DNA of 36,647 nt from a bacterium (GTDB lineage: Bacteria > Patescibacteriota > Minisyncoccia > Phycocordibacterales > UBA918): positions 6,511 through 43,157 of the forward strand of contig PAMC01000008.1 in NCBI GenBank assembly GCA_002710785.1, in the 5' to 3' direction. The position numbers were made by a program, and so were the translations under genes. Below are positions 31,183-35,152 of this stretch, piece by piece (positions within the stretch are counted from its first letter, which is position 1; each line of letters starts with the position of its first letter). A model generated the notes under the pieces. That model ran no database searches and was not told the DNA's origin. It saw only the letters and a list, made by a program, of their open reading frames with translations.

Positions 31183-31863
31183 CTAGATCAGCCCGCCTTC
31201 AATATCCAAGAGCTCGTCGAGATCTTTCTTTTTCTTCTTGGCCACCTCTTTTGGCTCACTTTCATCCATGACCGACTCCTCAGTTGTTTCTTCCTCGAGC
31301 ACTTTTGGCCCCTTTACGCTCTTTCCAATACGTTCGATGGTTACTGTCCAACCCTTCGGGCTTTTCTTCATATCGTCAGCGATTTTGTACTCGGCAGGAA
31401 TAGTCTTCACGAAGCGATCGAGACGCTCCTTGAGAAACTCTGGCTCCATGTACTTGTAGCGGCCCCACAGAAAGAGGTCGACTTTCACGCGGTGACCTTC
31501 GTTAAGCCACTCAGCCGCCCGCTTGGCTTTAATCATTTGATCGTTTTCGCCGGTACCAATTTTTACCTGCACGCTCTTGGTCTCGGTAACGTGAGACTTC
31601 GACTTAACTTCAGCCGCTTTTCGTTTTTTCTCGTACTGGTACTGGCCGTAGTCCATAATTTTGGCTACGGGTGGGTTAGCGTTGGGGGAGATTTCAATCA
31701 GGTCGAGTTCGAGCGCATCAGCTTTAGCCAGCGCATCTTTAAGCGCCAACTCACCAAAGTTCTCACCCTCAGGGCCGACCACGCGCAAAGTGCGGGCTTT
31801 AATGCCGTTATTAACTCGGGTTTTGTCAGCCTGGGCTCGTGGTTTGCGTCGTCCTCGTTTCAA
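31183..31863 (-). CDS. infC: Translation initiation factor IF-3
   Basis: 226 aa. RVNNGIKARTLRVVGPEGENFGELALKDALAKADALELDLIEISPNANPPVAKIMDYGQYQYEKKRK is the N-domain plus linker, and the C-domain KSVQVKIGTGENDQMIKAKRAAEWLNEGHRVKVDLFLWGRYKYMEP binds the 30S platform and prevents premature subunit joining. A C-terminal acidic/basic tail of about 45 residues (LEEETTEESVMDESEPKEVAKKKKKDLDELLDIEGG) is extra. The only reasonable start is TTG at 31863; no in-frame ATG or GTG lies upstream before the promoter. infC is known for rare start codons that allow self-discrimination. Confidence 0.94.
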   Translation of the reverse strand: MKRGRRKPRAQADKTRVNNGIKARTLRVVGPEGENFGELALKDALAKADALELDLIEISPNANPPVAKIMDYGQYQYEKKRKAAEVKSKSHVTETKSVQVKIGTGENDQMIKAKRAAEWLNEGHRVKVDLFLWGRYKYMEPEFLKERLDRFVKTIPAEYKIADDMKKSPKGWTVTIERIGKSVKGPKVLEEETTEESVMDESEPKEVAKKKKKDLDELLDIEGGLI

Positions 31864-33184: not shown

Positions 33185-33227
33185 ATCAGTCTATTGTATA
33201 TCGCCCTGAGCGATGCAGAAGTGGTCT

Positions 33228-33235
33228 GGTATAAT
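33228..33235 (+). promoter_or_regulatory. Extended -10 abutting the lysine-rich gene
   Basis: TGGTATAAT (hexamer 33230-33235), 9 nt, ATG at 33245. Confidence 0.5.
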
Positions 33236-33244
33236 AGCTCTACT

Positions 33245-33850
33245 ATGGCCGGTGGAGCAGCGACCAAAACGGTAAAGAAAAAAGTGGTACGCAAAAAAGT
33301 TGCGAAAAAGACCACCAAAAAATCGACTAAAAAGACCACCAAGCGCGTTACTAAACGGGTGGTAAAGAAAGTGGCCAAAAAGACTGCTAAAAAAGTGGTG
33401 CGTAAAAAAGTAATTAAAAAGGTACTCAAGCGACGGGTGGTAAAACAGCCTGGACGCAAAGCACCAACCAACTTGCCATTCCGCCAGCGCCTCAATAAAA
33501 AACGACTGGGTATTGTGGGCGGTGTGCTCGCGGTAGTGTGCGGGAGCGCAGCCTACATTGGCATCACCGGTGATGGGGGTCAAATTAACGTTATGGAAGT
33601 ACTGGCTGAGCAGGGTGTTACACCACAGCAAGCTGCGGTACCAGCCAGCACCACACCGGTAGCGGAGCCGGTTACCGAAACGAGCACGAGCAGTGCCACG
33701 TCAACCGAAGATGGTAGCGCAACCAGCACTGAGTCGGTCGCCACCAGTACACCGGCTACCGCAGGTGCAACCTCCACACCCGATACAGCAACCACTACTG
33801 AGCCAGCTGCAGTGAGCGATCCGCAGACTAACACCGCTACGTCGACGTAG
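33245..33850 (+). CDS. Membrane-anchored lysine-repeat (histone-H1-like) protein
   Basis: 201 aa from the ATG at 33245 (MAGGAATKTV), chosen because an extended -10 box ends 9 nt upstream; the track's start lies before that promoter. Residues 7-72 are Lys/Arg/Val/Thr repeats of the form TKKxxKKVxKK, as in the DNA-binding tails of histone H1, AlgP and HctB-like proteins. One transmembrane helix follows (about 89-107, GIVGGVLAVVCGSAAYIGI) and a Thr/Ser/Ala/Pro-rich tail of about 90 residues (TETSTSSATSTEDGSATSTES). The positive-inside rule places the basic domain in the cytoplasm and the tail outside. A role in tethering nucleic acid to the membrane is inferred. The 3' end overlaps the convergent SET gene by 14 nt. 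Confidence 0.7.
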   Translation: MAGGAATKTVKKKVVRKKVAKKTTKKSTKKTTKRVTKRVVKKVAKKTAKKVVRKKVIKKVLKRRVVKQPGRKAPTNLPFRQRLNKKRLGIVGGVLAVVCGSAAYIGITGDGGQINVMEVLAEQGVTPQQAAVPASTTPVAEPVTETSTSSATSTEDGSATSTESVATSTPATAGATSTPDTATTTEPAAVSDPQTNTATST

Positions 33851-34256
33851 CCGCTTTACACGCAGGACACCGACAGCCGCCGTCGGGAATTAAGATGTCC
33901 TTCATATACTCCTCACCGTAGTTAATGGTGATCTCCTCACCCGGGCGAATTTTGCGCAGCGCACGAATGTACACCCGGTCTTCGGTCACCTCATGCTCTG
34001 CTTCGGCATTTGGCTTGCAGGCGTGGTTAATGTAGCGGGCGGTGTGACTCGGGTGCGAGCCATCGATAACCAGGTCTTTTTTAACCTCAAAGAGGTAGCG
34101 ACCCCCGCGACGCTCACTCTCAGCGTCGTCAACGCGTTCGCCGGTGTACTCAATAATCAGCTGCCCTTTGGGAATGCTCTCAGCAGCAAAGAGGCCTTCT
34201 CCCTCGATGCCGCTGCCAATTTCGACAGCTGGTCGGTAGTTGTCGTTTAGTGACAT
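33837..34256 (-). CDS. SET-domain protein-lysine methyltransferase
   Basis: 139 aa, a minimal SET domain. IEGEGLFAAESIPKGQLIIEYTGE (17-40) is the SET-N strand region, ARYINHACKPNAE (73-85) carries the NHxxxPN SAM/catalytic motif, and GEEITINYGEEY (106-117) has the conserved Tyr. A C-terminal CRCPAC (128-133) resembles a post-SET zinc cluster. It transfers methyl from SAM to protein lysine; the substrate is unknown. It is convergent and 14-nt overlapping with the lysine-repeat protein gene, an obvious candidate substrate. On the minus strand TATACT lies 7 nt before the ATG, so it is probably leaderless. Confidence 0.88.
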   Translation of the reverse strand: MSLNDNYRPAVEIGSGIEGEGLFAAESIPKGQLIIEYTGERVDDAESERRGGRYLFEVKKDLVIDGSHPSHTARYINHACKPNAEAEHEVTEDRVYIRALRKIRPGEEITINYGEEYMKDILIPDGGCRCPACKAATST

Positions 34257-34313: not shown

Positions 34314-35042
34314 TTACCGATTGAGTAGGATGAGCATAATGAGCTTACGAATCAGTTCCTGAATCTCAGCTCGAATGGCCTCAGCTTCCTCATCGTCGAG
34401 GTCGCCGGCTGCAATGAAGCCGTCCATGATGTCGTCGAGTCGCGCTTCGCGCTTCTCAACCCATTCACCATTACGACAAAACTTGCGATCCCGCTCGCCG
34501 TCGCGAAGCATATCTACCTTACACTTCACCGCGTGTGGCACCTTACGGGCGTCACCGGTTTCGCAGTACCGCTTGTTTCCAACTCCTGGTCGGTCGCAGC
34601 GGTCAGATTTGTCATCCTCTTCTTCATCTTCATCTTCATCTTCATCTTCATCCATATCTTCGTCATCGTCGTCCTCATCCTCAGTGGCATCTTCGGTGAG
34701 TTCGTCGATAAGCTCAGATACTTCCTCGTACGCGTCTACTGCCTCTTCGTACGCGTCTTCGTACTCTTCAGCATCGAAGCTAGCAATTGCTTCGTCAAGA
34801 TCAGCTTCGGCTTCGGCTAAATCTTCTTCAGCTTCAGCACGATCGTCCGAATCCTCTTCGAGGTCGTCGATTAATGCTTCCGCATCTTCGAGCAAACCTT
34901 CAACGAGTTCAATCTTATCACCGGCTTTGGTTTCCCAATCGGTGTCCCCAGTCTCTTCTGCAAACGCCATCGGGGCGATCGCAAACATGAGGGCGAGGGC
35001 AGCGATGCTGCCCAGTAGGTGGGTACGTAGAGTAATACTCAT
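34314..35042 (-). CDS. Secreted highly acidic protein with Asp/Glu tract
   Basis: 242 aa from the ATG at 35042 (MSITLRTHLLGSIAALALMFAIAPMAFAEE), a clear signal peptide cleaved after AFA. Residues about 30-120 are a Glu/Asp/Ala helical region (LEDAEALIDDLEEDSDDRAEAEEDLAEAEADLDEA). A tract of about 30 almost pure Asp/Glu residues with a hexanucleotide repeat follows, then a Cys-containing segment (CDRPGVGNKRYCETGDARKVPHAVKCKVDMLRDGERDRKFC, four Cys) and a helical C-terminus. Calcium or cation binding at the surface is plausible from composition. Function unknown. A candidate TATACT (minus strand, 35100-35105) and a weak GC stem with a T6 tract in the leader could provide attenuation. Confidence 0.65.
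   Translation of the reverse strand: MSITLRTHLLGSIAALALMFAIAPMAFAEETGDTDWETKAGDKIELVEGLLEDAEALIDDLEEDSDDRAEAEEDLAEAEADLDEAIASFDAEEYEDAYEEAVDAYEEVSELIDELTEDATEDEDDDDEDMDEDEDEDEDEEEDDKSDRCDRPGVGNKRYCETGDARKVPHAVKCKVDMLRDGERDRKFCRNGEWVEKREARLDDIMDGFIAAGDLDDEEAEAIRAEIQELIRKLIMLILLNR
34622..34651. repeat. Hexanucleotide tandem repeat (CTTCAT)5
   Basis: Five perfect CTTCAT units, within the Asp/Glu tract on the opposite strand (ATGAAG units, read in-frame as Asp-Glu). Length change would add or remove Asp-Glu pairs without a frameshift. Confidence 0.85.
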
Positions 35043-35152
35043 AGTGATTAACGTTAATTGCAATAAAAAAGCCGCAGCCCTCCCGCTGTGCTTACATATA
35101 GTATAGACGGCCTACATGGCAGATTCTTTCTCCTGGTGTGGAAAAGGTGCAG

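Follow-up and report, generated by a model that had tools for sequence, protein, structure and literature searches.

Methylation of the H1-like protein Hc1 by cpnSET of Chlamydia pneumoniae has been reported, as has methylation of MC1-alpha by Go1-SET (PMC3980110), and low-complexity lysine repeats occur in AlgP (PMC9239181) and in Streptomyces TopA (PMC7398561). A search of open-access papers found no report on SET proteins or lysine-rich nucleoid proteins in CPR/Patescibacteria. The window (the whole 36,647-nucleotide stretch of DNA analysed here) resembles the chlamydial case in that a bacterial SET enzyme and a lysine-rich H1-like protein are encoded in the same genome. Unlike Hc1 and Hc2, however, the protein, for which we coined the name KMP, is predicted to be anchored in the membrane, and its orthologs do not conserve the lysines. 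KMP shares low-complexity lysine repeats with AlgP and TopA but differs from both in that its repeat is a lineage-specific form of a mixed Arg/Lys tail carried on a transmembrane (TM) helix. The features of the locus are as follows.

31183-31863, minus strand: infC (IF3), the conserved left anchor of the gene block
33227-33235, plus strand: extended -10 promoter of KMP, TGGTATAAT, 9 nt before the ATG at 33245
33245-33850, plus strand: KMP, a bitopic membrane protein of 201 aa
33245-33469, plus strand: basic tail of KMP, residues 1-75, with 27 K and 7 R; predicted cytoplasmic
33455-33469, plus strand: RKAPT motif of KMP
33506-33565, plus strand: single TM helix of KMP (~residues 88-107), predicted from hydropathy
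33566-33850, plus strand: conserved GQI(N/D)V segment followed by the disordered Ser/Thr-rich tail of KMP; predicted extracytoplasmic
33837-33850, both strands: 14-nt convergent overlap of KMP and SET, a perfect palindrome, CTACGTCGACGTAG
33837-34256, minus strand: SET-domain lysine methyltransferase of 139 aa, assigned by PF00856 and predicted fold
33858-33875, minus strand: CRCPAC, post-SET-like zinc cysteines, residues 128-133 of SET
34008-34028, minus strand: NHACKPN motif, residues 77-83 of SET

Judged by its sequence and predicted fold, the minus-strand product is a bona fide member of the SET-type protein-lysine methyltransferase family. The protein matches PF00856 over the full profile (positions 1-105; E=1.9e-25, 89.7 bits against a cut-off of 22.4), which bears out the minimal SET domain with NHxxxPN and CRCPAC described in the initial annotation. 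Its AlphaFold (AF2) model has a pLDDT of 90.2, the closest PDB folds to that model are MLL1-4 and NSD1 (E=6.5e-11 for MLL1, with many others matched), and its neighbours by sequence and fold are the SET domains of MLL, NSD and EHMT proteins. With MLL/NSD-type methyltransferases, to which its fold compares at a TM-score (query) of ~0.65-0.8, it shares a full SET domain, the NHxxxPN motif, the catalytic Tyr, the GxG motif and zinc cysteines; it is unlike them in its minimal length, in the CxCxxC spacing of its post-SET-like cysteines and in having no accessory domain. Among 75 relatives, N77, H78, C80 and N83 of NHACKPN, the catalytic Tyr Y113, G21 of the GxG cofactor motif, and C128 and C130 are invariant, and C133 is present in 65. 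The conserved catalytic residues, the Pfam match and the SET fold together make it likely that this is an active enzyme, with catalytic activity predicted from sequence and model.

The initial annotation also held bacterial SET enzymes to be uncommon, which fails for this order, where a survey of 397 sampled genomes (E<=0.001) found a SET match in 185, part of these matches being distant paralogues. No second SET gene was found in the window's genome (822 kb, 99.6% complete). Relatives at ~45% identity are encoded by Bradyrhizobium, Rhodopseudomonas and Tardiphaga, and seven alphaproteobacterial homologs were recorded in all, from these genera, Afipia and Reyranella. The alphaproteobacterial SETs nest inside a Parcubacteria clade of the tree (support 98/93, from few columns), tentatively suggesting, at limited resolution, transfer of SET between Alphaproteobacteria and Parcubacteria lineages.

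The plus-strand gene had been described as encoding a lysine-repeat protein with one TM helix and a Thr/Ser tail, and its 201-aa open reading frame contains six KKxxKK registers and a single TM helix, laid out as a basic tail, the RKAPT motif, the helix and a Ser/Thr-rich tail that is also Ala-rich in the window. Most of the protein is of low complexity. The net charge over residues 1-75 is +34, and by the positive-inside rule the basic tail would lie inside the cell and the Ser/Thr-rich stalk outside. The label "histone-H1-like" survives only as a statement of lysine-rich composition: the window's KMP carries the lysine-rich repeat tail of an H1-like protein, which is not kept in most orthologs, a linker-histone globular domain was not found, and searches of Pfam and NCBIfam gave no family match, with zero Pfam matches for the protein. 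KMP is an undescribed protein family. Its orthologs were recognised by their layout, namely basic tail, R[K/R][A/S]PT motif followed by TM helix, (D)xGQI(N/D)V, VPVQ, GGL and Ser/Thr tail. The motif lies near the membrane. Its R, P and T do not vary among the 15 orthologs that were aligned, an invariance that is partly preselected because these sequences were chosen partly by R[K/R][A/S]PT; some remoter members, identified afterwards, lack the last residue of the motif. The gene adjoining SET on its other side (34314-35063, minus strand) encodes a protein, predicted to be secreted, that bears long runs of acidic Asp/Glu repeats, near the basic-tailed KMP.

The two genes converge with the exact 14-nt overlap that had been reported, and adding one flanking base per side extends its palindrome to the 16-bp GCTACGTCGACGTAGC at 33836-33851. 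Because the overlap is a perfect palindrome, KMP and SET both end in ...TST; overlap lengths vary among relatives. The extended -10 element backs the KMP start at 33245, and its closeness to the ATG implies a leaderless mRNA. A two-hexamer sigma-70 scan found no KMP promoter, and the promoter call is based on the extended -10 element and its recurrence upstream of orthologs, a -10-like box lying just 5' of the start in 20 of 24 family members by a loose pattern. Since KMP lies on the opposite strand with its own conserved promoter, the two genes are not co-transcribed.

Conserved adjacency of KMP and SET in relatives was found within the genus but not beyond the family. All 17 genus genomes with both genes keep them within ~9 kb (13 pairs directly adjacent, three split by xfp-ackA and one by ~8 kb), and the pair is likewise adjacent in one further genome of the same family (G417). 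At ~60 SET loci outside the family, no neighbour with a basic tail, TM helix and Ser/Thr tail was found, and clustering of neighbours revealed no recurrent SET partner outside the genus. The KMP profile matched 22 of the 38 genus genomes and eight of the 397 order genomes, six of those eight from the genus; it missed a divergent lysine-rich KMP adjoining SET in G015. In the genus, the genes occupy a block ordered ndk, MBL nuclease, rplT-rpmI-infC, (DUF1295), KMP, SET, xfp, ackA and HK/RR. In six genomes lacking this SET, KMP is still in its slot near infC and/or xfp-ackA; SET is present with KMP undetected in seven genus genomes; and in five genomes (G029, G017, G018, G020 and G001) SET occupies the infC-side slot without KMP. 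Counted over the 38 genus genomes, both genes occur in 17, SET only in seven, KMP only in six and neither in eight, where absence is uncertain at contig ends (e.g. G021) and G060 is scored as SET-less because its distant SET paralogue (E=3e-6) sits elsewhere. This co-occurrence is not significant by a Fisher test that ignores phylogeny (p=0.17), and the obligate co-occurrence of a pair like cpnSET and Hc1 was not found, each gene occurring alone. The linkage at genus level is real and, on these gene orders, appears best read as conserved synteny: as each gene holds its slot in the block without the other, the cause of the adjacency looks positional, although the persistent proximity in the genus, with 13 of 17 pairs directly adjacent, counts against a purely positional reading.

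The composition of the KMP tail bears on the writer/substrate pair proposed in the initial annotation, in which methylation of the KMP repeat by SET would tune the binding of KMP to DNA or RNA. The fraction K/(K+R) stands at 0.79 for the window's KMP and at 0.57-0.83 across the clade with the closest SETs. Most of the remaining orthologs have values of 0.14-0.45, but three reach 0.57-0.62. Likewise, the window's KMP has six KKxxKK registers, whereas each of the other profile-aligned orthologs has 0-2. The sole conserved Lys of the tail, that of RKAPT, is Arg (RRAPT) in three SET-bearing genomes. GC bias as a cause of KMP lysine content was ruled out (Spearman -0.10, p=0.66). The lysine repeat is, as far as the aligned orthologs show, restricted to the small clade of the window, most orthologs being Arg-rich. 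This exchange of Lys for Arg, together with RRAPT in SET-bearing genomes, suggests that conservation preserves the positive charge of the tail rather than a methylatable residue. Nevertheless, the five SET-lacking genomes measured have a low tail Lys fraction (0.14-0.37) and Lys-dominated tails coincide with the clade of SETs most like that of the window, a weak association of SET presence with lysine content that lies in the direction predicted by a writer/substrate link and is confounded by phylogeny.

Adjacency within the genus, an intact SET domain, the lysine-rich tails of the window's own clade and the precedents of cpnSET on Hc1 and Go1-SET on MC1-alpha (PMC3980110) all favour such a link. 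The conserved target lysines of a SET-substrate pair were not found, however, as Arg replaces Lys in most KMP orthologs, including most of those in SET-bearing genomes; moreover, KMP and SET each persist alone, and SET is common in the order without KMP. The writer/substrate reading is thus possible but unsupported, the conservation evidence appears to lean against it, and we consider it unlikely. Since either gene persists where its neighbour is missing, and only this small lineage has the lysine repeat, a dedicated system of an enzyme and a histone-like target is not supported.

KMP shares exact KKxxKKxxKK repeats with two other proteins of the window's genome, RpoD and a YtxH-like protein. 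RpoD, the primary sigma factor (contig C3:45069-46451), has an N-terminal lysine-repeat tail that across the genus is mostly 0.3-0.45 Lys with almost no Arg, with or without SET. The YtxH-like protein (contig C18:37818-38294) has KKxxKK tails at both ends; 35 of the 38 genomes of the genus encode it, and its tail is nearly pure Lys where read, which was at 12 of 30 loci, one of these masked. Like KMP, it combines one TM helix with KKxxKK repeats, but it is the product of a different gene, away from SET, and is the more conserved membrane-anchored lysine-repeat protein of the two. These repeats, and the nearly pure Lys of the RpoD and YtxH-like tails, would fit a SET whose substrates are lysine-repeat tails in general, including that of KMP in this lineage. 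The RpoD and YtxH-like tails, however, are Lys-rich in SET-lacking genomes as well, the mean K of the RpoD tail being 0.37 with SET and 0.31 without (Mann-Whitney p=0.41, with some tails badly cut, to one residue in G027 and 10 in G004), and neither gene is linked to SET in the window's genome, making action on the class improbable. Because the YtxH-like protein is near-universal and RpoD tails occur regardless of SET, a membrane-tethered lysine-repeat protein is a general trait of the genus, independent of SET.

The position of SET beside or near infC-rpmI-rplT in the genus, with or without KMP, raises the alternative that SET modifies the translation machinery, for example IF3 or the adjacent L20/L35. 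IF3 has a lysine-rich C-terminal extension, and the genus orthologs seen end in a KSKKKSLDELLEGG-type tail. Outside the genus, however, infC lies within four genes of SET at only four surveyed loci, and synteny could explain the proximity, so that we hold this alternative, too, to be improbable.

We propose instead, with a probability of roughly two in three, that KMP and SET are independently evolving neighbours in a conserved block, that the substrate of SET need not be KMP and that KMP is likely a tether. The two genes would be neighbours through the shared block of this Parcubacteria (Kaiserbacteria-type) genus, and SET, from a family found widely across the order, would be a small protein-lysine methyltransferase of the cytosol. 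The conserved property of KMP would be positive charge, as Lys or Arg, together with R[K/R][A/S]PT near the membrane, and since both are conserved, KMP most likely tethers nucleic acid or ribosomes electrostatically to the membrane, as judged from its anatomy.

It is very unlikely, in our estimate, that the window's lineage, with its Lys-dominated tails, recruited SET as a methyltransferase for the lysine-repeat tails that are tethered to the membrane and those carried by the sigma factor; if true, methylation by SET would tune a link between nucleoid, transcription and membrane in a CPR cell. In sum, an attractive guess is corrected, in that a conserved gene block best accounts for the adjacency of SET and a lysine-rich protein. 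The analysis also yields a compact SET family that is common in this order of Parcubacteria, a bitopic family, hitherto undescribed, that conserves R[K/R][A/S]PT, and tails of lysine repeats in both the primary sigma factor and a membrane protein near-universal in the genus.
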